Shown here in pieces: positions 3,542 to 46,106 of a stretch of 64,000 bases of DNA (position 1 is the stretch's first letter; every line of letters starts with the position of its first letter). The DNA is from Runella sp. MFBS21 (GTDB lineage Bacteria > Bacteroidota > Bacteroidia > Cytophagales > Spirosomataceae). The notes beneath the pieces are model-generated. The model was not told the origin of the DNA. It ran no database searches and worked only from the letters and a program-made list of their open reading frames with translations. The position numbers were made by a program, and so were the translations under genes. The stretch is taken from positions 1 to 64,000 of the forward strand of contig NZ_JARNTW010000025.1 in NCBI RefSeq assembly GCF_029433105.1, read 5' to 3'.

Positions 3542-6500
3542 ATGGCTTCTGAATATTCGTATGCGTACAAGGCATTTATTAAGAATATATACCTTTTTCT
3601 CCCAAAATACACCTTTGATCACCATCCAATTGAAGGTAATGATGGTGAAATATTTTTAGGGAGAAATAAAATAACCGAGCGATTGTTAAACATGCTTAAA
3701 AATGGAGATGAGCGAGGGGCTTATCTAGTTACGGGTTATCGGGGTATGGGGAAAACAAGTTTTGTAAGGAAAGTCATCAAAGATTATAAGAAATTTAAAG
3801 ATGAGAATAATGTTAAGGTTAAGGAAAGCCACATAAGTTTTGCCCAAAATGATCTCAAAGAAATAGATGTTTTAAGGCAAATTACTAAGTTTATCAAGGA
3901 TGAACTTCAAGGTAATGATAGATTGAAAATTATCAATTACCTTGAACGACGTAGTTTGATTTTTTTCTTCGGCTGCTTGAGCTTCTTCTTATTGCTATTG
4001 TTTGGGAAGTATTTTCAGATTAATATTGAGATTGCAGAAGAACACAGTATCATCAATGCTTTAGTAGTAAGCTTGATAGGGGGGTTGGGGATGTTTCAGA
4101 TTTTGCAATTATTGCTATATATAGCTCGAAATTACTCCTCTGTTTACAAATTAGTGACTATATACCGGCAAGTGGAGTTGCTATACGATCGCTGCCAAGG
4201 CGAAGTAAATGATGAAAAAGGGATTCAGAGTACCAATGAGCAACTACCTATAGGATTTATAAATAAAAAATCAAAAAAATTTCAACCACTTACATCTAAA
4301 GAAGCTGAATATGAATTGATTGAAATTTTAAGTAAATATAAAAAATTGTTTTTTTATGATAGAAGTAGAATGTTAGGGAAAATTTTTGTGCTAGTTTTTT
4401 TTATAGTTATTAATTTTAGTATTTTATTTTTTTTGTATGTGCTGTATTGTGTTGCGAGAGATGAGGCTGTTTTTTGCGTATTTTTTGTTTTAATTTTCAT
4501 GTTTTTTATTGCTTTTAATAGAGAAGTGTTTGTTGATTTGGTAAATATTTTGAGGGAATTTAGGTATACTAAAGAGTTTATATTTGTTTTTGATGAGTTG
4601 GATAAGCTAGATCCACAAACAGGAAAAGGGTATTTTTATGAGAAAAATATTGCAGCTTCTACTAACCTACATTATAGTACTTATACAAATGAATTGAGAG
4701 AACGTAAGTATGCAGTTTTGAATTTATTATCTTCAATGAAATATTTTGTTACTGAAGCAAAAGCACGTTTTATTTTTATTGCAGGAAGAGAAATGTTTGA
4801 TGCTTCTTTAGCAGATATTGCAGATAGACAATCGTCTATTAGTAGTGTCTTTCATCAGATTATATACGTAGATAGTTTTTATAGAGATAAACCTTCTAGG
4901 AGCAGAGCTTCTGGAATTGGAGAAATGGTAGAAGAATACCTTGAAAAAATTCTTATTGATGAAAAATACAAAAAAGATAAAAAAGATGAATTTTACAAAA
5001 ATCATTTTTTGGCGAACTACTATGAGTTTTTAAATGAAAAATATGGTAAAAAAATAAATGAAAGTGTATCTCATGAGCCTAGTGGATGTGATTCTGGAAT
5101 GATAAAAGAAGATGAAGTAGGGGGGGAAGAAAATTGTCTTTCTAAGGAGGAGATTTTGAAAATAATTTTTACTCTTCAAAATCTTATTATATATATTGCT
5201 TACCGCAGTAATGGATCTCCTAAAAAAATGGTTCACTTGTTAGAAGAATCTATTGTTAGGGTTCCTAAAAACGAAATAATAGATAGGAGATTGAATATTT
5301 ATGCGGGAAGTCCTATGTATGACAAAGATAATACTATGGGAGAGTTGTATTTAAGAATTTCATATAAAAAACAATATAAATTAGGTTTTACTTCATATTT
5401 ATTTCGACCTTTTCTTTTGATGTATGGTAGTTTTCTAAAACGCTATGGGGATAGTCTATTGGTTTCATCGCCATACCTAATTGATAATCTTATTAAATTT
5501 CACCCATTTGCTTTTTCAATTAAGAACTTAGAATTGTTGCCTGAAATCATATCGTCTAATAAAACCCCTGAACTAAGACTATTTATTGAAGAGCTTATTT
5601 ATTTTCTAAGTCAAAATCATATACGTGAAACTGAATCAGGTTTTTTTGAATATAAATTCTACGATAAAACGCATAATGAAATAGCATATATTTCAAAGAT
5701 TGCTGAGGAAGAATCAGCAGCTTTTAATTTTACATTGGATGAGAATTACCCTATCAAAAAACATTTAGCCGCTCGTATAAAAGAACTTCGTGAAACCCAC
5801 AAAGATTTTAAAGATAGCAATGATGAATTTTCAATGTCATTGACCTTTCTTAATAATTTACTTGGAGATGCAGAGCTGTACGATGATGAATTCGAAGATG
5901 CTATAATATCATACTCTGATGCTTTGCAGGGTTTGCCGAAAAAAGAAGTTAAATATTTTACTCATGAACAATTGATACTGTCTGTAAGATTTAGACTAAA
6001 ATTGGGGCTTACTTATGAGAAAATGAAGTCATATGATGTAGCATTGGGGCATTATACAGATGCATTACTTCAAATGAAATCTTTTTTTGAGGCTAATGGA
6101 GAAGAACGTCTACTGCTAGTTTCACCTTCTTTTAGAGAGTTATTACTATTAAGCTCTAATGCACTTGCTTCTGTTGTATATGTGCAGGAGAAGTTAGACG
6201 AAGGGCTTACTTTTCAAAAAATGGCTAATTTTAGTAAGATATTTCATGATATGCTTAATAATGTTGGTAAGACTTCATACAATGGTAGAGATATCATTGA
6301 ATCAAACCATTATGCACAAATGGCTACAATTGCCTTTTATAAAAACATGCCTCTTCCATATAATGAAATGGAGGTGAATGTTGAATTTTTGAATATGATT
6401 TTTTTTGAACAACCTCTTAAGGAGCATTCTTTTATTCAAAAGTCTTTTGAAGAAATTAATAAAAACAATAAATATAATAAAATGATTTTTAATATAGGTA

Positions 6501-8185
6501 GCTTAACTAGGGATGGCTCTAGGGATTTTAGGTTTTCTTTTATTTCATATGTGTACTATAAAAAATGCCTTGCGTCATATTTGCCCAATAATAAACAATT
6601 AGGTTGTTTGCATGGTATTGTAAAAAATTCATTTGATATGATTTATGACTTCAATAATTCTCATGATAAAAATATGCTGAGAGGAGTTGCTGATGCTCTT
6701 ACTAGATTAGGTGATTTACTTCTTACTTTGTTTGATTTAAAAATTGTGGAAGATGAAAAAAAGAAAATTTTATCTAATGAGTTTCTAAAATCTATTATAG
6801 AGATAAAAAATGATGATAAGGAATCAGTAATTGGAAATTTAGATAAAGGATTTAAATCGTATATTGATAATAATAAATCATTCTTGTTTGGTGAAACAAA
6901 TGAAAATGAAGGAGTTTTGTTAGAAGGAATAGTGTTAATGTATTATTTATCAGGAAGATTTTACTTGAAATCTGGGCGCAGTAATAGTACTAGCTTTCAG
7001 TTTAGGAAAATACTCTTGCTTATGAGGAATTTTCTGTATTTTGATGATAGCTCAGAAAAACTTATATTTTGGCTTGAAAATAGTTTTCTAAAAAAAATAT
7101 TGGAAATTAGTAGCTGGAATAATAACTCATCTGATAGGCCACAAATACTTAAGTTTAAAGACTATTTTGATATCAACTCAGTGTTAACTCCTAAAGAATA
7201 TTCGAAGTATATTTATATGAATCTCTCTAATAATCCTGAAACTAAAGAAGCTTTGCTATTAATTGCAGATATGAAAATAAAGGCAAGTGATTATTCTGTA
7301 TACACAACACTTGAAGACTTTATAACTAGATGCCCTGAACAAAGCCTCGTGACTCCTTTTAATGGTATTTCACACCAATTTGTTCGAATAGTAGAGTTGA
7401 ACTTACAAGTTAGTATGAATTATAAATATTTGAAAGAAAAACTGAATAAAGAATACATAGATATAAATAAAAGAACTACCCCTAACTTAATTTCTTGGGA
7501 AAAAGAGTATTCATCACTTTTTCTCATCAATGACAATAATATTGATAAGCTTGAAATTAGAGAATATGAATTTACTAAAAGATTTTCCGATAAATATCTT
7601 AGTAAAAAATTAGGAATAGTGGACGAAAATGACATTTGTTTGGGTCAAATGAAAGTTTTACTAAAAGAGTATTTTCAAGTAGTAGTAAATTCTATTTACT
7701 GTAATTACCATATTATTGCATCTCTAAAAATATATGGTGTCAACCATTTCTTAAATAATGCTTATATGGCTTCTTTTCACGAAAAATTGGCCTTCTGGTT
7801 AAAGCACCTTCGTTTATGTAAAATACTGGATGCTGAACTTGAATTAGATTTCGAAATTGATAGCATTTTTAATCAACTATTAGGTTTTCGAGTGATTCAT
7901 ACTCTTGAGGTAGTTCCTCAATATCAATTAGCACTTCAATATTATTATCAGTCGCTTCAAGTACATAGTGAAGGGTCTGCATATAAATATCAGATAAGTA
8001 ATTTTATTTATCTCGAAGATGATTATAATGATAATCTATATCATTTTGGGGCGGCTCTTGAACGGCAGAGAATTAACTCAGGCTATATTAGAAAGCGAAT
8101 AAAAGAAATAGAAAATGAAACAAAAGATGCGGGTATTTTAAAATACGATATGTTTGTCAATAGTGAGAAGATAAATAACAGATAG
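3542..8185 (+). CDS. Large membrane P-loop NTPase (KAP-like layout) with long helical/TPR-like C-terminus
   Basis: This 1547-residue protein is not a family I can name. The N-terminus has FLGRNKITERL then a Walker A motif GYRGMGKTS (65-73), as in AAA_16/STAND-type NTPases. A Walker B-like FIFVFDELDKLD lies at 346-357 and a sensor-like strand FIFIAGRE follows. Between the two Walker motifs lie four hydrophobic segments (about 138-158, 171-194, 279-303, 307-326). Membrane helices inserted inside the nucleotide-binding domain are the hallmark of KAP NTPases, though the Walker A is not KAP-like. From about residue 760 on, helical repeats resemble TPRs (for example residues 775-860). The gene is strikingly AT-rich and rich in Lys, Asn and Ile compared with the hexosaminidase before it, suggesting lateral acquisition. 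It sits three bases before a small membrane-protein gene, so the two probably act together. A role in phage defence or another conflict is possible but unproven. Confidence 0.75.
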   Translation: MASEYSYAYKAFIKNIYLFLPKYTFDHHPIEGNDGEIFLGRNKITERLLNMLKNGDERGAYLVTGYRGMGKTSFVRKVIKDYKKFKDENNVKVKESHISFAQNDLKEIDVLRQITKFIKDELQGNDRLKIINYLERRSLIFFFGCLSFFLLLLFGKYFQINIEIAEEHSIINALVVSLIGGLGMFQILQLLLYIARNYSSVYKLVTIYRQVELLYDRCQGEVNDEKGIQSTNEQLPIGFINKKSKKFQPLTSKEAEYELIEILSKYKKLFFYDRSRMLGKIFVLVFFIVINFSILFFLYVLYCVARDEAVFCVFFVLIFMFFIAFNREVFVDLVNILREFRYTKEFIFVFDELDKLDPQTGKGYFYEKNIAASTNLHYSTYTNELRERKYAVLNLLSSMKYFVTEAKARFIFIAGREMFDASLADIADRQSSISSVFHQIIYVDSFYRDKPSRSRASGIGEMVEEYLEKILIDEKYKKDKKDEFYKNHFLANYYEFLNEKYGKKINESVSHEPSGCDSGMIKEDEVGGEENCLSKEEILKIIFTLQNLIIYIAYRSNGSPKKMVHLLEESIVRVPKNEIIDRRLNIYAGSPMYDKDNTMGELYLRISYKKQYKLGFTSYLFRPFLLMYGSFLKRYGDSLLVSSPYLIDNLIKFHPFAFSIKNLELLPEIISSNKTPELRLFIEELIYFLSQNHIRETESGFFEYKFYDKTHNEIAYISKIAEEESAAFNFTLDENYPIKKHLAARIKELRETHKDFKDSNDEFSMSLTFLNNLLGDAELYDDEFEDAIISYSDALQGLPKKEVKYFTHEQLILSVRFRLKLGLTYEKMKSYDVALGHYTDALLQMKSFFEANGEERLLLVSPSFRELLLLSSNALASVVYVQEKLDEGLTFQKMANFSKIFHDMLNNVGKTSYNGRDIIESNHYAQMATIAFYKNMPLPYNEMEVNVEFLNMIFFEQPLKEHSFIQKSFEEINKNNKYNKMIFNIGSLTRDGSRDFRFSFISYVYYKKCLASYLPNNKQLGCLHGIVKNSFDMIYDFNNSHDKNMLRGVADALTRLGDLLLTLFDLKIVEDEKKKILSNEFLKSIIEIKNDDKESVIGNLDKGFKSYIDNNKSFLFGETNENEGVLLEGIVLMYYLSGRFYLKSGRSNSTSFQFRKILLLMRNFLYFDDSSEKLIFWLENSFLKKILEISSWNNNSSDRPQILKFKDYFDINSVLTPKEYSKYIYMNLSNNPETKEALLLIADMKIKASDYSVYTTLEDFITRCPEQSLVTPFNGISHQFVRIVELNLQVSMNYKYLKEKLNKEYIDINKRTTPNLISWEKEYSSLFLINDNNIDKLEIREYEFTKRFSDKYLSKKLGIVDENDICLGQMKVLLKEYFQVVVNSIYCNYHIIASLKIYGVNHFLNNAYMASFHEKLAFWLKHLRLCKILDAELELDFEIDSIFNQLLGFRVIHTLEVVPQYQLALQYYYQSLQVHSEGSAYKYQISNFIYLEDDYNDNLYHFGAALERQRINSGYIRKRIKEIENETKDAGILKYDMFVNSEKINNR

Positions 8186-33065: not shown

Positions 33066-33599
33066 ATGTATGAACATTTCAATCCCTTTGGACTAGCTGA
33101 TGCTTGGTGGCAGCAAATTCTTATGCTGGTGATTGCCAGTATATTAGGTTTTATTATTGGTTATATTAGTAAAGTGAGAGAAATCGATGATTTAGAAAAT
33201 GAGCTGGCAGAATTGGATGCCGCCGTTGACGATTGTCATAGTCGAACTCGTAAAATTCTGGAAACACCCGTCATTTCTGAAGAAAAGTCTCTTGCGGTTC
33301 CTTTAGCGGTAGCAGTACCAGTCACTGTAGCGGACTTAAAAATAGATGATTTGAAAATTGTGGAAGGGATTGGACCTAAAATCGAAAAGTTGCTTAATGA
33401 GGCTGGTATCAACACATTTGATGATTTAGCCAATACTTCTCCTGATCGTATCAAAGATATTTTGACCACGGCAGGGAGCAGATTCCAGATGCATGAGCCC
33501 TCTACTTGGCCGGAGCAAGCTGCTTATGCGCGTGACGAAAAATGGGAAGAGTTGAAAGTATGGCAAGAACAACTCAAAGGTGGTAGGACAAATCAATAA
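33066..33599 (+). CDS. Membrane-anchored helix-hairpin-helix protein, copy 1
   Basis: The 177-residue protein has one N-terminal membrane helix (about 15-35), a short coiled stretch with a DDCH motif (55-58), a linker, and a C-terminal helix-hairpin-helix domain beginning LKIVEGIGPKIEKLL (97-110). It ends with a conserved block FQMHEPSTWPEQAA (140-153) and KWEELKVWQ. HhH domains of this sort are found fused to many envelope and DNA-related proteins; here the anchor makes DNA binding uncertain. The next gene (33628) is a clear paralogue. Confidence 0.75.
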   Translation: MYEHFNPFGLADAWWQQILMLVIASILGFIIGYISKVREIDDLENELAELDAAVDDCHSRTRKILETPVISEEKSLAVPLAVAVPVTVADLKIDDLKIVEGIGPKIEKLLNEAGINTFDDLANTSPDRIKDILTTAGSRFQMHEPSTWPEQAAYARDEKWEELKVWQEQLKGGRTNQ

Positions 33600-33627: not shown

Positions 33628-34164
33628 ATGATTATTTTAGATATAACTCCGCTTAGTCAAAATTTTTGGGTAGCCTTGCTAGAAGCGTTGGCCTTGCTAT
33701 CATTTTTTGCGTATTTAGGATGGTGGATTGCTCGCCGTATTTTTTCGGCTCAGCTTGCGCAACTTCACGTTGATATCCATAATCGTAGAGTGGATTTGGA
33801 CAATTGCCACAAAAAAAGCACCTTGTCAGAAGATTCAAAACTAGTCCAAGTACATGCTACTTCTCAAAGGGCAGCTATAGTGGATATGCCAGTGCTGATT
33901 GAAGAAGTCGCGGATGATTTAAAAATCATAGAAGGGATAGGACCCAAAATAGAAGAAATACTTAATGCAGAAGGGGTGAAGACTTTTGCTAGGCTAGCCG
34001 CTACTTCTGCCGTGAATCTAAAGGAATGGTTAGAGGCAAAAGGCCCTAGATTTCAAATGCATGATCCAACCACATGGCCTGAGCAGGCCGCTCTAGCCCG
34101 AGATGGTAAATGGGAGGAGCTCAAAAAATGGCAAGATGAATTAAATAAAGGCCGACTTCAGTAA
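33628..34164 (+). CDS. Membrane-anchored helix-hairpin-helix protein, copy 2
   Basis: The 178-residue paralogue of the preceding gene has the same plan: a membrane helix (about 15-33), DNCH (58-61), then LKIIEGIGPKIEEIL (98-112), FQMHDPTTWPEQAA and KWEELKKWQ. The linker regions differ, so the duplication is not recent. It starts 28 bases after copy 1 and ends in a bidirectional hairpin. The function is unknown; the link to the OmpA gene just upstream suggests an envelope complex. Confidence 0.75.
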   Translation: MIILDITPLSQNFWVALLEALALLSFFAYLGWWIARRIFSAQLAQLHVDIHNRRVDLDNCHKKSTLSEDSKLVQVHATSQRAAIVDMPVLIEEVADDLKIIEGIGPKIEEILNAEGVKTFARLAATSAVNLKEWLEAKGPRFQMHDPTTWPEQAALARDGKWEELKKWQDELNKGRLQ

Positions 34165-38292: not shown

Positions 38293-40020
<1,728 letters not shown>

Positions 40021-40037: not shown

Positions 40038-40082
40038 AAATATCTAAGTGACTTAAAGCTTTTTCTAGTCACTTAGATATTT
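40038..40082 (+). terminator. Long perfect hairpin after pgi
   Basis: AAATATCTAAGTGACT (40038-40053) and AGTCACTTAGATATTT (40067-40082) form a perfect 16-bp stem with a 13-base loop, 17 bases after the pgi stop. The T run is short, so it may be a terminator or a boundary hairpin of the AT-rich module that follows. Confidence 0.6.
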
Positions 40083-40128: not shown

Positions 40129-41394
40129 ATGGTCTCTTCTTCTGCTATTATTCTAGAACAAGTTTCAAAAACAACCATTCAATTGATTTTAAGGGAACCA
40201 TTCTATGGCCACTTTTTTACAGGTATTATCAGAGAGGTATCTTCCTACGTACCCACTATGGCGATAGGAACTACGTCTAACAGAATGCTACAACTTTACA
40301 TTAATCCACAATTTTGGGAATATGAACTAGATACGCCAGAGCTTAGATATGGATTGTTGAAGCATGAGATTCTTCACATAGTGTTAAAACATATTTTTCA
40401 AATTGGAAAGTACTCCAATAAGAAGATATTTAATATCGCTGCCGATATAGTAGTAAATCAATATATAGAAAAAAAACAATTACCAGAGGGCGCCGTGTTG
40501 ATAAGTGATTTTTCGAGTTTATCATTGGAGTTGAATAAAGACGTAGGGTACTATTATGAAAAATTGATAAAGGAATGGAATGATATTGGGAGTTTTTTAG
40601 GTGTAGAAAGCAATGCTTACGAAAAACTACCAAGCCAACAGAAGAAATTTGTTGATTTAATGAATAAAGGTGGATGGCAGTTTGAAATGCACGACTCATG
40701 GATAACAGATTTACAAAAGCTGCCGGAATCAGACAAGAAAATAATTGAAAGGTTACTGATAAAAATCATTGACACTTCTGTTAAAAGAGTAGGTCCAAAA
40801 TATATAGGAACTCTTCCTGCTGGAGTACAATATCAAATAGAACAAATTATGGAATCTATGGCTCCTTCTTTTGATTGGAAGAGAGCTTTAAGGATATTTG
40901 CTGGAAATAGTACTCGTACCTATATCAAAAATACAATTAGTAAGCCCTCTAAGAGATATGGTAGTGTACCAGGGATTAAAATCAAAAATAGAAAGAAAAT
41001 TTTAGTAGCCATTGATACTTCAAGGAGTATTGATTTAGAAGAGTTAATGGAATTTTTTAGTGAACTTTATTATATTTGGAGGCAAAAAACGGAAATATGT
41101 GTGGTTGAGTGTGATACAAAAATACATAATACTTATATGTATAAAGGCCAACTACCTAATACAGTTCATGGAAGAGGAGGTACTAACTTTAATGAGCCTA
41201 TTGCTTATGCAAATGAGAAATATATAGCTGACGCAATTATATATTTTACTGATGGATTTGGGAATACTCCAGTTGTTAAAAATAGAAAACCTATTATGTG
41301 GGTAATAAGCTCTAAAGGGATAAATAACACAAATGTACTTTGGGACTCATTAAGTGGACAAAAAATAAAAATTCACAAAAAAATATCAATTTAG
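40129..41394 (+). CDS. HExxH metallopeptidase-like and VWA domain protein (DUF2201-type), partner of MoxR ATPase
   Basis: The 421-residue protein has an N-terminal domain with HEILH (79-83), a zinc-protease motif, followed by FNIAADIVVNQYI. The C-terminal VWA domain has a complete MIDAS: DTSRS (296-300), GGTNF (351-354, Thr352) and FTDG (373-376, Asp375). This two-domain plan is the putative metallopeptidase/VWA-like family that normally sits next to a MoxR-type AAA+ ATPase. The ATPase gene follows after a single base here. The module is AT-rich compared with pgi before it. A shared biological role is likely; whether the HExxH site is catalytic is unknown. Confidence 0.85.
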   Translation: MVSSSAIILEQVSKTTIQLILREPFYGHFFTGIIREVSSYVPTMAIGTTSNRMLQLYINPQFWEYELDTPELRYGLLKHEILHIVLKHIFQIGKYSNKKIFNIAADIVVNQYIEKKQLPEGAVLISDFSSLSLELNKDVGYYYEKLIKEWNDIGSFLGVESNAYEKLPSQQKKFVDLMNKGGWQFEMHDSWITDLQKLPESDKKIIERLLIKIIDTSVKRVGPKYIGTLPAGVQYQIEQIMESMAPSFDWKRALRIFAGNSTRTYIKNTISKPSKRYGSVPGIKIKNRKKILVAIDTSRSIDLEELMEFFSELYYIWRQKTEICVVECDTKIHNTYMYKGQLPNTVHGRGGTNFNEPIAYANEKYIADAIIYFTDGFGNTPVVKNRKPIMWVISSKGINNTNVLWDSLSGQKIKIHKKISI

Positions 41395-41395
41395 T

Positions 41396-42496
41396 ATGCA
41401 TAGCTATACATTTTATGGAACAAAAACAAAAGCTGATGAAGTAATCCAGTTTGTGAACCATGTTTTAACAGTAAATTTAGAACTTGAAAAACAAAATAGG
41501 AAAAAAACACCAGTTTGTATATGGGGGCGTCATGGTATTGGCAAAACTGAAATTGTAGAAGCTATTGCCAAAGAACGAAATTTTGATTTTGCTTATATTG
41601 CCCCTGCTCAATTTGAAGAAATGGGAGATTTGTTAGGGATGCCAAGTGTTGAGAATGGCCGTACGGTGTTTCGTTCGCCAGAATGGGTTCCAACAGAGGC
41701 GGGGCCAGGCATCCTTCTTATTGATGACGTGAATAGGGCTGATGAACGTATATTGAGAGGAATTATGCAATTGCTTCAAAATTTTGAGTTGGTAAGTTGG
41801 AAGCTCCCTCCTTTGTGGCAAATAATTCTTACTGCCAATCCAGACGGCGGAGACTATTCGGTAACTCCAATGGATGATGCAATGCTGACTCGAATGCTTC
41901 ATATCTCTTTGGAGTTTGATGTGAAAGAATGGGCTAAATGGGCTGAAAAATCAAAAATTGATCCCAGAGGGATAAACTTTGTACTGTTGTATCCCGAAAT
42001 TGTAACAGGGAATCGCACAACTCCACGTACATTAGTCCAATTTTTTGACACTATAAAAGACATAGATGATTTATATGAAAACCTTCCATTAGTTCAGCTT
42101 CTTGCCGATTCTTGCCTTGATACTAACACAGTTACATCTTTTATCAATTTTGTAAATAATAACCTAGGTGAACTAATTAGCCCCGAAGAAATATTGAATG
42201 CTAAAAACTTTGAACGTGTAGTTTTATCACCTCTTAAAGAAATAATATTTAAAGAAACTATTCGTGTTGATATTATTGCTACAATATGCACTAGATTGAT
42301 TAACTATTTGACTATAAATAATCTAAAACTCACCAAAGAACAATTAGAGAATGTAAAATCTTTTATCAAAATGGAGTTTATTCCAAATGATATTCGATTG
42401 ACAATGGCACAAGACTTAGTCGCTTTTGGTAATCCCTCATTGAAAATGATATTAACTGACCCAGAAATATCAAAATTTATTTTAAGAAAAATGTAA
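41396..42496 (+). CDS. MoxR-type AAA+ ATPase
   Basis: The 366-residue protein has Walker A GRHGIGKTE (44-52), Walker B ILLIDDVNRAD (106-116), sensor-1 ILTANPDG (144-151) and an arginine finger region DDAMLTRMLHI (160-170). These are the marks of MoxR/RavA-type AAA+ chaperones that remodel partners with VWA domains. The gene starts one base after the VWA gene stop, so the two are tightly coupled. C-terminal helices (about 230-366) are the lid and a family-specific extension. Confidence 0.9.
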   Translation: MHSYTFYGTKTKADEVIQFVNHVLTVNLELEKQNRKKTPVCIWGRHGIGKTEIVEAIAKERNFDFAYIAPAQFEEMGDLLGMPSVENGRTVFRSPEWVPTEAGPGILLIDDVNRADERILRGIMQLLQNFELVSWKLPPLWQIILTANPDGGDYSVTPMDDAMLTRMLHISLEFDVKEWAKWAEKSKIDPRGINFVLLYPEIVTGNRTTPRTLVQFFDTIKDIDDLYENLPLVQLLADSCLDTNTVTSFINFVNNNLGELISPEEILNAKNFERVVLSPLKEIIFKETIRVDIIATICTRLINYLTINNLKLTKEQLENVKSFIKMEFIPNDIRLTMAQDLVAFGNPSLKMILTDPEISKFILRKM

Positions 42497-42535
42497 TTTT
42501 TGAAGACAAAATTTAATGCTAAACCTGCAATAATT

Positions 42536-44899
42536 ATGGAATACATAGATACACGTATGGTGATTGAAAATGTTAATGAATATGATTTAGAAAAGTTGAA
42601 AGCAGCTACTGAGTTATCAATAACGGATGTTCGGTGCAATATGGACGATATTGAAAGTTTATTGATAGAATGTGAAAGTGAAAACTTGAAAGAACTCACT
42701 ATTTCTAACCATAACTTAGAGAATTTACCAAGGAATTTATCTAAATTGAAATCAATTCAAACTCTTTCACTAGGATTAACAAAATTAACATCATTGGGAG
42801 TTAGAATTCTTCCTAGTAATATTAGGTATCTTAACGTGTTTTCTTCCTTATTGGAGTATATTTCTGAAGAAAATATAGATCATTTAGAAAACTTGTATTC
42901 GCTTAACATAAATGCTCCAATTAAAGAAGTTGGAGGTATAAGTAAGCTGTGCAAATTGTCGTTTATTTCATTAAAAAATACAGAAATTGAAAGCATTTCT
43001 TCTGCATGCCTTTCGAGAGATATTTCTACATTAGAGCTTTTCGAAAATAGTAAATTAAAATTTGTTGATGTAGAATATTTTAAAAAAATGAACTTTTTTA
43101 ATCTTGAAAATAACTTTAATGAACTTAGAGTGCTTGGTTTGAAAGAATGTAAATCTTTAAGATATTTGGATATGTCAAATATAAAATATTTTCCTGAAAA
43201 CTTAGAATATTGCCTGAAGCTTAGAGTATTTAGATTGAAAAATAGCATTATTGAAGAATGGCCAAATTTGAAAGATGTACTTTGGCGAGTTTCTGATTTG
43301 AGCATAAATGGGACAAATTTAAAAAAACTTTCAGATGACTGGTCATTGTTTTCGAATCTTGAATTCCTGAACTTAGAAAATAATCAGATTGAAGATTTTA
43401 CGTTTCTTCAATTTGTTCCTCCGCTGAAATCATCTTTCAATATAAAAGGTAATCCAATGAAAGATGAACTTTTTATGCTTGAAATAAAAAAAACATTGTT
43501 ATGTTGGGGATTATTTGCTTTTAAAGCATTGGATAGTCATGAAATTTCATTGTTTATGAGTGCCCTAGCTAAGAGTGGTTTGAGTAGAGAAGACAAAGAA
43601 TGGTTTTTTTATACTATTAAGGATAATTTGCCCAATGATATAATTAAGGAGTGGCCTTTGTTTCGCTTGTTACAAGGTTTGAATGTACCATTTAAAGTGA
43701 TTGCTGATACGACCCTTTCTCGTTTACAGGAATTGGAATTAAATAAAAAAAGTTATGAGTCTTTTACCAAAGGAAGTGTTTGCTTTTTAGATGGAAATTT
43801 TGTTGAAAATAAAAATGAAATAAAGGATAAGTTGAATGTACTAGGAATTTCTCTTTCTCGTGTACTCAATGAAAAGGTTACTCACGTTGTTTTAGGGAAA
43901 AAGCCGAAGCAGGCTCTAGAGTATTATAATAAATCTGAGTTTAATTTTATTTTAGAACATCAATTATATCAAGTTATTAAGAAAGTTGGGGAAGAGGATA
44001 TGTTTTTAATTCAAGAAGCTTCAGAAGGAGAGACCGTGATGCAAGAAGGAGTTAAGCAACTTTTAAGGAGTACGGACCCAACTTCTGTGAATTTAGGTAT
44101 AGAAATGCTTAAATCTGGTGGTTTTACAGATGAAATATTGGAAGAGTTTTTAGTGTTAAGTAAAACTTTTGATGATTCAAAGGTGAGAGCAGATATAAGA
44201 AAACTGCTAGAGAAACAAGGTGTAAATCAATGGTTTGGGATACTAAAAGACAAACACACCTTTGCTGGTATTCAGAATATTGAAGAAAGTGATATAAGGT
44301 GGAAATTAGAAAAAATGCTCAAATTTGTAAGTGAAGAAGAAGTTTATCAATTTGCGAAGCTATTGATGAAATATTGTTATAAAGGTTTTGCATTTGTTTT
44401 AGGAAATTATCCGCTGAATAGTGAACATAGAAAGCATGCACTTTTAAGCCTTACCAAAGGCAATCATCTGGACTTTCATAGTGGCGTTGGGTATCCCCCG
44501 AATCGAGACCATTTGGGGAGTGGACAGCCACGAATAAACATTGAATTTCCTTCAGACCATCCCAATCTTAAACAAATTACTAAAATAGATATGCATGATT
44601 GTAAATTTTCGTCTTTGTCAGAGAATATTGTTTTGTTTGAGAATATAGAAGAATTAGACCTTTCTTATAACTATCTAAAGTCATTGCCTTTGGAAATTAG
44701 TAACTTATCTAAGTTAAGAATTTTAAATTTATCGTTTAATTCAATTACTAAATTCCCAACCGCATTGGAAAAGCTAGATAGCTTAGAAGTATTGGATTTA
44801 AGGTGTAGTGATTATTTTAGTTTTAATCCAAGAAAAAAAGATATTAAAATACCAAGTAGTTTTACTGAAAAATTGCCGAATTGTAAGGTGCTGTTATAA
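42536..44899 (+). CDS. Leucine-rich-repeat protein with internal BRCT-like domain, third gene of the MoxR-VWA module
   Basis: About 787 residues from the ATG at 42536. A TTG at 42500, four bases after the ATPase stop, would add 12 residues. The first 310 residues are divergent leucine-rich repeats (LKELTISNHNLENLPRNLSK, then NLEFLNLENNQIEDF). Residues about 410-485 look like a BRCT domain (KGSVCFLDGNFV, LNVLGISLSRVLNEKVTHVV, EFNFILEHQLYQVI). A helical region follows with repeat-like blocks around 495-600. The last 110 residues return to LRRs of the canonical type (NIEELDLSYNYLKSLPLEI, KLRILNLSFNSITKFP). BRCT domains are rare in bacteria outside NAD-dependent DNA ligase. It is AT-rich like its two neighbours. 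It may be the recognition component of the three-gene module. Confidence 0.75.
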   Translation: MEYIDTRMVIENVNEYDLEKLKAATELSITDVRCNMDDIESLLIECESENLKELTISNHNLENLPRNLSKLKSIQTLSLGLTKLTSLGVRILPSNIRYLNVFSSLLEYISEENIDHLENLYSLNINAPIKEVGGISKLCKLSFISLKNTEIESISSACLSRDISTLELFENSKLKFVDVEYFKKMNFFNLENNFNELRVLGLKECKSLRYLDMSNIKYFPENLEYCLKLRVFRLKNSIIEEWPNLKDVLWRVSDLSINGTNLKKLSDDWSLFSNLEFLNLENNQIEDFTFLQFVPPLKSSFNIKGNPMKDELFMLEIKKTLLCWGLFAFKALDSHEISLFMSALAKSGLSREDKEWFFYTIKDNLPNDIIKEWPLFRLLQGLNVPFKVIADTTLSRLQELELNKKSYESFTKGSVCFLDGNFVENKNEIKDKLNVLGISLSRVLNEKVTHVVLGKKPKQALEYYNKSEFNFILEHQLYQVIKKVGEEDMFLIQEASEGETVMQEGVKQLLRSTDPTSVNLGIEMLKSGGFTDEILEEFLVLSKTFDDSKVRADIRKLLEKQGVNQWFGILKDKHTFAGIQNIEESDIRWKLEKMLKFVSEEEVYQFAKLLMKYCYKGFAFVLGNYPLNSEHRKHALLSLTKGNHLDFHSGVGYPPNRDHLGSGQPRINIEFPSDHPNLKQITKIDMHDCKFSSLSENIVLFENIEELDLSYNYLKSLPLEISNLSKLRILNLSFNSITKFPTALEKLDSLEVLDLRCSDYFSFNPRKKDIKIPSSFTEKLPNCKVLL

Positions 44900-44951: not shown

Positions 44952-46106
44952 ATGCCTCCACGCATTGATATTTTTGCGATTGTGATTTTGTTGGGTGTCG
45001 TACAAGGCATCTTATTGGGAGGGCTTTTTCTCACCGGTACTAGAGCCACTTCTGTGGCCAATCGTACTTTGGGGTGGATTATGTGGGCTTATTCAGCGGC
45101 TATTTTTGAGATATTTTTGTGCTATACCAACTATCAATTTCAGACGCTGTGGGCCGATAACTTTGCCGAACCCACCAACTTCCTATTGGCGGTATTGCCT
45201 TATTTTTTTGTACATGCCCGCTTACATGGGCGATTGCCCAAGCACTGGCAATGGCATCTACTTCCGTTTGGGTTTTGGTGTCTCTACTCGATTTTTTGGC
45301 AATACCAGTCTTACGATTATAAATACAACTCTTACATTACGGCTTGGCATCCAGAGCTATCCTACCGCCCATTTACTTATTGGATTCCAGAAGACCCTTT
45401 GTACCTGCGCGACCACGTCAATGACCTAACTCTCTTTAGTATCTTGATTTATATTGGGTTGAGTTTGAAAGAAGTATATTTATCGTTCAAAAAAAATCAA
45501 CTACCTTTTTTTACCAGGCAAACAGCGGTTCCTCTTACGCAAGTACGCAATTATGTTTTTCTTTTTTGCCTTTTTCCAATGGTCTTTGTAGGAGTCAAAC
45601 TTAGTTTTCAGAAAGATTTGGGAGACTATTTACTGGGAAGCTTAGTGACTTTTTACATCTATGCTACAAGCTATCTTACATTGAGTCATTCGGTGTTGTT
45701 TCAGGTGGAGAATACGGTAGAAAACCGAAAAAAATATGAAAAGTCTTCGTTGTCAGAGGATAATGGTGAAGTGATTTTGCAAAAACTACAGACCTATCTC
45801 CAAACCCAAAAACCTTATCTCGAAAACGACCTAACGTTGCCGAAATTGGCTCAGCGATTATCGGTATCTCAGCATCATTTATCGCAGGTACTCAACGACC
45901 GCCTTGGACAAAGTTTTTTTGATTTGATGGCAAAGTGCCGAGTAGAAGAAGCCCAAAAGCTGCTAACAGATGGGGCACATATGCATCTTAAAATTGACGA
46001 AATTGCGGAGCAAGTAGGGTATAATTCTACTTCGGCATTTCATACGGCTTTTAAGCGAATTACGGGACAAACGCCCGCCCAATACCGTGCCAAATTCCTG
46101 AATTGA
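44952..46106 (+). CDS. AraC-family regulator with seven-helix membrane N-terminus
   Basis: The 384-residue protein has about seven hydrophobic segments in residues 5-255 and a C-terminal AraC DNA-binding domain (about 275-382): LTLPKLAQRLSVSQHHLSQVL for the first helix-turn-helix and KIDEIAEQVGYNSTSAFHTAF, then FKRITGQTPAQYR for the second. Regulators with this plan are frequent in Bacteroidota and sense an extracellular or membrane signal. It follows the LRR gene after 52 bases without a terminator but has a different composition, so it is probably not part of that unit. Targets are unknown. Confidence 0.9.
   Translation: MPPRIDIFAIVILLGVVQGILLGGLFLTGTRATSVANRTLGWIMWAYSAAIFEIFLCYTNYQFQTLWADNFAEPTNFLLAVLPYFFVHARLHGRLPKHWQWHLLPFGFWCLYSIFWQYQSYDYKYNSYITAWHPELSYRPFTYWIPEDPLYLRDHVNDLTLFSILIYIGLSLKEVYLSFKKNQLPFFTRQTAVPLTQVRNYVFLFCLFPMVFVGVKLSFQKDLGDYLLGSLVTFYIYATSYLTLSHSVLFQVENTVENRKKYEKSSLSEDNGEVILQKLQTYLQTQKPYLENDLTLPKLAQRLSVSQHHLSQVLNDRLGQSFFDLMAKCRVEEAQKLLTDGAHMHLKIDEIAEQVGYNSTSAFHTAFKRITGQTPAQYRAKFLN

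Follow-up and report, generated by a model that had tools for sequence, protein, structure and literature searches.

Introduction

Pairs of a MoxR-type AAA+ ATPase and a protein with a von Willebrand factor A (vWA) domain are widespread and, to our knowledge, most of them have no known target. Here, we analyzed such a pair together with a third protein, which consists of leucine-rich repeats (LRRs) and a BRCT domain (LRR-BRCT protein). The three genes lie one behind the other in a stretch of 64,000 nucleotides from Runella sp. MFBS21 (Bacteroidota; RefSeq assembly GCF_029433105.1, contig NZ_JARNTW010000025.1, positions 1 to 64,000 of the forward strand), which is referred to as the window and belongs to a genome of 7.88 Mb. 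As far as the accessible portions of the papers cited here and below go, the MoxR-vWA ternary systems comprise the types VMAP, iSTAND, FtsH, and beta-propeller (PMC7159879) as well as iSTAND2 and TERNS3 (PMC8195603). Group 2.2 jumbo phages encode a MoxR protein and a metallopeptidase-vWA protein, for which a role in virion assembly was proposed (PMC7824862), and in NorQ/NorD a MoxR ring and its vWA partner remodel a target enzyme that needs iron insertion (PMC9976466).

The Runella locus shares the MoxR-vWA pair with the ternary systems, most types of which include a further component whose architecture varies (PMC7159879; PMC8195603). Unlike in these systems, the third protein has an LRR-BRCT-helical architecture that belongs to none of the six types (it is set apart from VMAP and TERNS3 by its Pfam matches, not by profiles of those types), the genes can be dispersed, and the vWA protein carries an N-terminal zincin domain and no C-terminal effector domain. 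The trio is thus ternary-like but departs from the known systems in two defining features: its third protein is outside the six types, and no effector follows the vWA domain. With the jumbo-phage pair, the locus has in common a MoxR protein and a vWA domain fused to an N-terminal metallopeptidase, and the window proteins match the families phrog_1297 and phrog_1314; however, no LRR-BRCT protein is described for these phages, and the words "BRCT" and "leucine" are absent from the main text of PMC7824862. Likewise, NorQ/NorD combines a MoxR ring with a vWA partner, but the accessible portion of PMC9976466 names neither a peptidase domain nor an LRR-BRCT partner. An LRR-BRCT component is found in no MoxR-vWA type in the accessible text of PMC7159879, PMC8195603, and PMC7824862, and no description of the trio was found in the openly licensed literature among the matches listed, as judged from titles and the openings of abstracts. 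Within this literature, the statement of an earlier note on this DNA, made from the sequence alone, that an LRR-BRCT third partner is undescribed therefore stands.

Our results show that MoxR, the vWA protein (DUF2201 family) and the LRR-BRCT protein are a set that mostly persists even when the genes are scattered. We favor, tentatively and with a confidence a little short of even, the prediction that they form a three-component MoxR-vWA machine with the LRR-BRCT protein as recognition or adaptor subunit. With the recurrent third protein, one MoxR-vWA subfamily gains a partner, and a physical complex is predicted. Should this protein be a recognition subunit, it would add a new ternary type, and none of the other types described in the accessible sources has a BRCT core.

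Results and Discussion

Domain composition of the three proteins

The earlier note had read the locus as a three-gene module of an HExxH/vWA protein, a MoxR ATPase, and an LRR-BRCT protein, and this reading was borne out by the open reading frames (ORFs), Pfam domains, and motifs. The three co-directional ORFs (Table 1) are flanked by pgi (38347-40020) on one side and by an araC-type gene (44952-46106) on the other. The first ORF matches DUF2201_N (52.2 bits) and the vWA-like DUF2201 domain (47.1 bits; residues 292-395 of 421), and no Pfam domain was found C-terminal to the latter; the second matches AAA_5 (36.2 bits). Both proteins match phage families of the PHROGs database (DUF2201, 175.4 bits; MoxR, 145.5 bits), and MoxR matches were found in plasmids (46 records) and phages (95), all at less than 60% identity. 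Among the sequences of solved structures, Midasin was the only match of MoxR, and the DUF2201 protein had none.

In 44 DUF2201 homologues scoring above 180 bits, H79, H83, and H88 are each conserved in 43 and E80 in 37 (Gln in six, Val in one). The metal ion-dependent adhesion site (MIDAS), noted before as intact, proved to be so across the family: D296, S298, and S300 are present in 44/44 homologues, position 352 is Thr or Ser in 42/43, and D375 is found in 43/43. The Walker A GKT and Walker B DD motifs are invariant in all 75 MoxR homologues. As judged by its sequence, the window DUF2201 protein has the HExxH motif of an active zincin metallopeptidase, and proteolysis by this domain is possible in most members, although not in all. 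In one metagenome-assembled genome (MAG), the DUF2201 gene is divided across two open frames (L070:4715-5798), which reflects either a broken gene or an assembly error. The third ORF, whose start is unsure between two codons (Table 1), has LRRs at both ends and BRCT in the middle according to Pfam, and besides these only sub-threshold matches to RepB_C and PTCB-BRCT.

Co-occurrence of the third protein with the pair

A MoxR scan with one genome per species yielded 198 relatives, and the best 80 loci were kept, of which only 42 have stretches of at least 13 kb. DUF2201 was present in 47 of these loci, a BRCT protein of the family in 28, both in 26, and neither in 31. Since a profile that includes the LRRs (A2) was swamped by LRR matches in 395 genomes of the phylum (64/395 match), a profile restricted to the BRCT-helical core, with the LRRs omitted (A3), was used instead. 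The other 52 loci have no BRCT gene; 32 of their genomes were searched with A3, and 29 gave a match at an E value of 1e-6. In 26, the match started within the first 20 columns and included the BRCT domain. The third gene is thus conserved with the pair, being linked in 28/80 loci and encoded elsewhere as a BRCT-spanning relative in 26/32 of the other genomes tested.

In the 395 phylum genomes, A3 matched 16 (E 1e-6). Thirteen of these matches are short, cover the BRCT part alone in open frames of 669-767 amino acids, and are taken as DNA ligase because of their size and extent rather than on the basis of annotation, which leaves the genomes G000 and G242 and a weak match in G498. MoxR is encoded by G000 and G242 and also, with an identity of 40%, by G258; G498 has no MoxR match and is counted as an exception.

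A family-level comparison was made with 130 genomes of the Saprospiraceae, to which Saprospira grandis belongs (thresholds of E 1e-30 for MoxR and 1e-8 for A3). MoxR was detected in 42 genomes and A3 in 39, with 35 containing both, seven MoxR only, and four A3 only. Accordingly, A3 was found in 35/42 MoxR-positive versus 4/88 MoxR-negative genomes (Fisher p 2.7e-20, with kinship ignored), or in 33/42 versus 3/88 when only matches including the BRCT domain were counted. With MoxR of at least 45% identity, and leaving aside two fragments (G747, A3-negative; G761, A3-positive), A3 was present in 31 of 32 genomes, the exception being G697. DUF2201 was sought in 25 genomes and was present in all 22 MoxR-positive ones, in 16 of which it lies away from MoxR; G649 has A3 and DUF2201 but no MoxR match. 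Hence, a third gene not conserved with the pair, which the earlier note had named as refuting its reading, is not what the genome counts show, but the partner is not always adjacent and 7/42 MoxR-positive genomes gave no match. It is this co-occurrence across linked and dispersed genomes that leads us to regard the three proteins as a set.

These counts also bear on the idea that an LRR protein merely lies next to an unrelated MoxR-vWA pair. LRR proteins are indeed common, as the matches of the LRR-containing profile illustrate, but the A3 core is rare (3/395 genomes beyond the short ligase-like matches) and yet occurs in 35/42 MoxR genomes of the Saprospiraceae. The co-occurrence contradicts a chance neighborhood, the probability of which we regard as negligible.

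The BRCT domain of the third protein

With the whole window protein, Pfam BRCT scored 20.5 bits at residues 426-475, just below the cut-off of 21.3, and 22.4 bits were reached with residues 400-799 alone. An alignment of 31 homologous segments from related loci was turned into a profile (A1) and compared with the sequences of solved structures. The best match was the DNA-ligase BRCT 1l7b (E 5.8e-9). LigA chains came next (about 2e-5), ahead of RFC1 and microcephalin (both near 5e-4) and of Rad4 (1e-3), while PARP1 and TopBP1 were weaker than 0.01. Structural models were obtained for residues 400-799 (predicted local distance difference test, pLDDT, 87.6) and for the BRCT domain with the following region (pLDDT 91.3), and in both the strands and helices follow one another as in BRCT domains, b1-a1-b2-b3-a2-b4-a3. 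In Foldseek, the top 50 matches of the latter model were mostly BRCT-containing chains (best E 3.4e-3, none below 0.001), and the matches listed for the former were LRR proteins. Profile and model thus agree, which supports the presence of a real BRCT domain where the earlier note had seen a BRCT-like one; the refuting case named in that note, a BRCT lacking profile or structural support, did not arise.

By sequence, the BRCT domain of NAD-dependent DNA ligase is the closest solved one. In phosphopeptide-binding BRCT domains, the phosphate pocket includes a Ser or Thr that directly precedes the conserved Gly where b1 ends. The window protein has Asp at this position, and among the 31 members of the family Ser occurs in three and Thr in none. 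Unlike the ligase domain, the BRCT of this family sits in an LRR/helical scaffold and lacks the pocket residue in 28/31 members. Since Ser/Thr is found in only 3/31, binding of phosphopeptides is unlikely as a rule, and the argument that BRCT domains usually bind them loses weight here. The same residue bears on a possible function as accessory factor of DNA repair or replication, in which the BRCT domain would bind DNA ends or repair proteins. The nearest BRCT relatives, NAD-dependent DNA ligase and RFC1, and a WGR domain in one relative speak for such a role. However, the pocket residue is missing in most members and repair genes are not prominent nearby: in a scan of 37 loci that covered 120 neighboring proteins (no more than three ORFs per side, each of at least 180 amino acids), HhH-GPD was found in 2/120 among the best 25 of 138 Pfam families. 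We therefore consider a repair function very improbable.

Variation of the LRR-BRCT proteins

The shared core of the third protein consists of the BRCT domain, the helical region, and the C-terminal LRRs. Two relatives (L043 and L035) begin at the BRCT domain and represent the core alone, and in others different N-terminal modules are located ahead of it, namely WGR and TPR (L144), TPR (L078), or SUKH (L085). The SUKH (SMI1/KNR4) module is carried by a relative from a Kofleriaceae (Myxococcota) MAG (L085:625-3030), and the WGR-TPR-LRR-BRCT-LRR protein is encoded near MoxR-DUF2201 (L144:1320-4787); a combination of WGR with BRCT is otherwise familiar from PARPs. An LRR family was matched by 46/46 full-length relatives and Pfam BRCT (E 0.01) by 21/46, the latter number being low because the BRCT match of a single protein is weak. 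The BRCT-helical core evolves more slowly than the N-terminal part in the gammaproteobacterial set, and in a clade of 771-amino acid proteins the C-terminal LRRs are the most conserved part.

On contigs of a viral collection, DUF2201 adjoins MoxR in 5/10 MoxR relatives. One contig of this collection, which may be a host fragment, encodes a protein of 1366 amino acids that combines a BRCT-like domain (18.3 bits, under the cut-off) with long LRR arrays. This protein (L229:1814-5911) precedes MoxR-DUF2201 and is another build from the same two domain types.

The number of LRR-BRCT genes per genome can be high. G762 has 12 A3 matches (the BRCT domain is seen by profile at nine of the 12 places, at one of them weakly) and G715 has 18 (13 with BRCT), while each of these two genomes contains a single MoxR and a single DUF2201, and 12 A3 matches and one DUF2201 were found in Aureispira sp. 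CCB-QB1 (G640, from L027).

Proposed role of the trio

By analogy with NorQ/NorD (PMC9976466, accessible portion), the DUF2201 protein may constitute an ATP-driven engine together with the MoxR ring, in which the vWA domain would plug the ring and the MIDAS metal would grip an acidic residue. The BRCT-helical core of the LRR-BRCT protein would dock on this engine, and its LRRs and other N-terminal modules would bind a ligand or target. What is remodeled by ATP hydrolysis could then be the target or else the LRR-BRCT protein, and the zincin domain may also cut it where the HExxH Glu is kept. The proposed machine is supported by the co-occurring set, the kept ATPase motifs and MIDAS, and the build of the third protein, in which LRRs and varied N-terminal parts accompany the BRCT-helical core. 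The repeated appearance of linked trios on the MoxR tree (see below) and the L229 protein ahead of its MoxR-DUF2201 pair also speak for it. A recognition or adaptor subunit fits best because of the conserved core, the varied N-terminal parts, and the many-to-one ratio of the genes; a client of the engine comes next, with a defense sensor close behind.

As a client, the LRR-BRCT protein would be matured or assembled by MoxR-DUF2201, and the function would reside in the matured protein. The single engine alongside many LRR-BRCT genes in some genomes is consistent with this, the dispersed genes suggest a housekeeping-like relation, and NorQ/NorD acting on nitric oxide reductase provides a precedent in the accessible part of PMC9976466. 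However, no enzyme domain scored above the Pfam cut-off in ten proteins examined, nine of them of the LRR-BRCT type (for the 46 relatives, the Pfam evidence covers the best 25 of 38 families), and the differing N-terminal modules would be left unexplained. We therefore rate the client model as possible but rather unlikely.

Within the recognition model, the 12 and 18 A3 matches beside one MoxR and one DUF2201 in G762 and G715 raise the further prediction, which we regard as doubtful, that one MoxR/zincin-vWA engine serves a repertoire of LRR-BRCT receptors. If true, this would be a bacterial system of one engine and many LRR receptors, which would resemble sensing of the NLR type in its logic but be based on a MoxR ring.

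Several observations weigh against the recognition model or limit its support. First, the partner is not found everywhere. No BRCT gene was present in the fetched stretch of 21/47 DUF2201-bearing loci, and the same holds for 4/5 viral-collection contigs with the pair. Among the 32 genomes searched, G618, G620, and G647 had no A3 match, the match of G628 started at column 38, inside the BRCT domain, and those of G632 and G636 comprised the helical part only, without BRCT. The Saprospiraceae genomes without an A3 match include G697, despite a 67% identical MoxR, and conversely G691 and G757 have A3 but neither MoxR nor DUF2201. In addition, the Fisher p value overstates the evidence because the genomes of one family are related. 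Second, the greater divergence of the third protein, which in itself favors the model, is subject to caveats. Across the 18 loci that contain the full set of ORFs, the mean pairwise identity was 64.8% for MoxR, 46.7% for DUF2201, and 25.5% for LRR-BRCT. However, the last value pools sub-types of the protein, and in the three closest Vibrio/Ferrimonas pairs LRR-BRCT diverges no faster than DUF2201. Third, the HExxH Glu is absent in 7/44 DUF2201 homologues, so that proteolysis is not general.

Defense genes in the neighborhood

The earlier note had also placed the trio among proposed conflict systems. In such a system, the LRR-BRCT protein would sense an invader and release remodeling or proteolysis by MoxR-DUF2201, thereby stopping the cell or the invader. 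Apart from weak matches to ATPases (the best with E 8.7e-4 and 16.1 bits), the trio itself matched no PADLOC family, and PADLOC identified no defense family in eight other genes of the window. Among the neighboring proteins (best 25 of 88 PADLOC families), the strongest match was a DndD-like protein at locus L011 (E 5.3e-60). It is followed by a DptH/DndH-like gene (DptH, E 1.3e-11). Both genes (L011:735-4339) are on the same strand as the trio, which begins 130 bp behind the second one, and the MoxR of this locus is the closest to that of the window (73%). DptH is a phosphorothioation-dependent restriction protein, and the two genes possibly represent a restriction neighbor of this type. The remaining PADLOC families in the same set, counted over all loci together, were ZorB (three), caspase, mad2, and REase_II (two each), and DndH and mad8 (one each) of 120 proteins, and these matches look generic or weak among the matches listed. 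The Pfam families of the neighbors (best 25 of 138) were mostly metabolic or general, with a caspase domain in 3/120.

A linkage to defense is therefore real in one locus but unproven in general. A conflict function would further be in line with the patchy distribution (MoxR in 3/395 phylum genomes), the probable recent insertion of the unit described below, the varied architectures of the third protein, and the resemblance to MoxR-vWA ternary systems as far as these are described in the accessible sources. On the other hand, L011 is one of 37 scanned loci, no domain follows the vWA domain, and MoxR is found in 42/130 Saprospiraceae genomes with the genes often dispersed. The conflict hypothesis thus keeps the DndD-like and DptH-like genes in its favor and finds no counterpart in the trio or the eight window genes; we judge it unlikely. 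A fixed fourth gene was not seen either, as no Pfam family among the best 25 of 138 occurred in more than 4/120 neighbors.

Probable insertion of the unit behind pgi

A MoxR tree was calculated with 75 sequences; the loci L020, L035, L038, L043, L058, and L066 are absent from the alignment and the tree because their MoxR ORF was not called. The label "linked trio" requires eight changes on this tree, at least five of which are forced by well-supported branches. Linked trios are distributed over Bacteroidota, Pseudomonadota, and Myxococcota, and an alphaproteobacterial MAG among them may be mis-binned.

No DUF2201 match was obtained in 12 genomes of the same genus. In 9/11 same-genus pgi stretches, the araC-type gene follows pgi at about 80-190 bp; of the remaining two, one contig ends first (L224) and the other has no araC-type match within 2.1 kb after pgi (L227). 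A sister genome (G172), whose pgi is 98.6% identical, has an empty site. The trio has a G+C content of 31.7%, compared to 43.5% for pgi and 40.5% downstream, in accordance with the AT-rich unit noted before. There was no sign of a target-site duplication, as the junctions share no word of eight or more bases. The presence of the trio behind pgi is best read as a recent insertion, and the simplest reading of the compared sequences is that one insertion brought all three genes.

The coordinates of the features are given in Table 1.

Table 1. Features of the MoxR-DUF2201-LRR-BRCT locus in the window.
Feature	Position	Strand	Basis
DUF2201 protein, 421 amino acids, N-terminal zincin-like metallopeptidase and C-terminal vWA-like domain	40129-41394	+	Pfam PF13203, PF09967; phrog_1314
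HExxH motif, residues 79-83; additional conserved His88	40363-40377	+	44 homologues
MIDAS DxSxS of vWA, residues 296-300; completed by Thr352 and Asp375	41014-41028	+	44 homologues
MoxR-type AAA+ ATPase, 366 amino acids	41396-42496	+	AAA_5; phrog_1297; Walker A/B in 75/75
LRR-BRCT-helical-LRR protein, 799 amino acids from TTG (787 amino acids from ATG 42536)	42500-44899	+	Pfam LRR, BRCT; relatives in 28/80 loci
BRCT domain (supported), residues 422-496	43763-43987	+	Family profile to 1l7b, model topology, Foldseek
Helical region behind BRCT, within conserved core	43997-44509	+	Alignment A3; mostly helices in the model, high pLDDT
C-terminal leucine-rich repeats	44567-44896	+	Pfam LRR_8/LRR_4; Foldseek LRR matches
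16-bp perfect hairpin after pgi, probably ordinary inter-gene terminator, outside the system	40038-40082		Folding; same-genus comparison

The hairpin after pgi, which folds with a z of -7.0, had been proposed as a border of the unit. It does exist, but carries no weight as a border: in the same-genus relatives, the stretch from pgi to the next gene differs in sequence from that of the window, and inverted repeats were seen by eye in several of these stretches (not folded). The hairpin probably represents an ordinary terminator outside the system.

Elsewhere in the window, an ORF of 1547 amino acids (3542-8185) with about 29% G+C is located inside a region of 40% G+C and is possibly another acquired gene. 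It has weak matches to AAA_16, iSTAND, and nSTAND1, all under the curated cut-offs, and no PADLOC match. Finally, two adjacent proteins (33066-33599 and 33628-34164) have a similar C-terminal region, with the motif EGIGPKIE in both.

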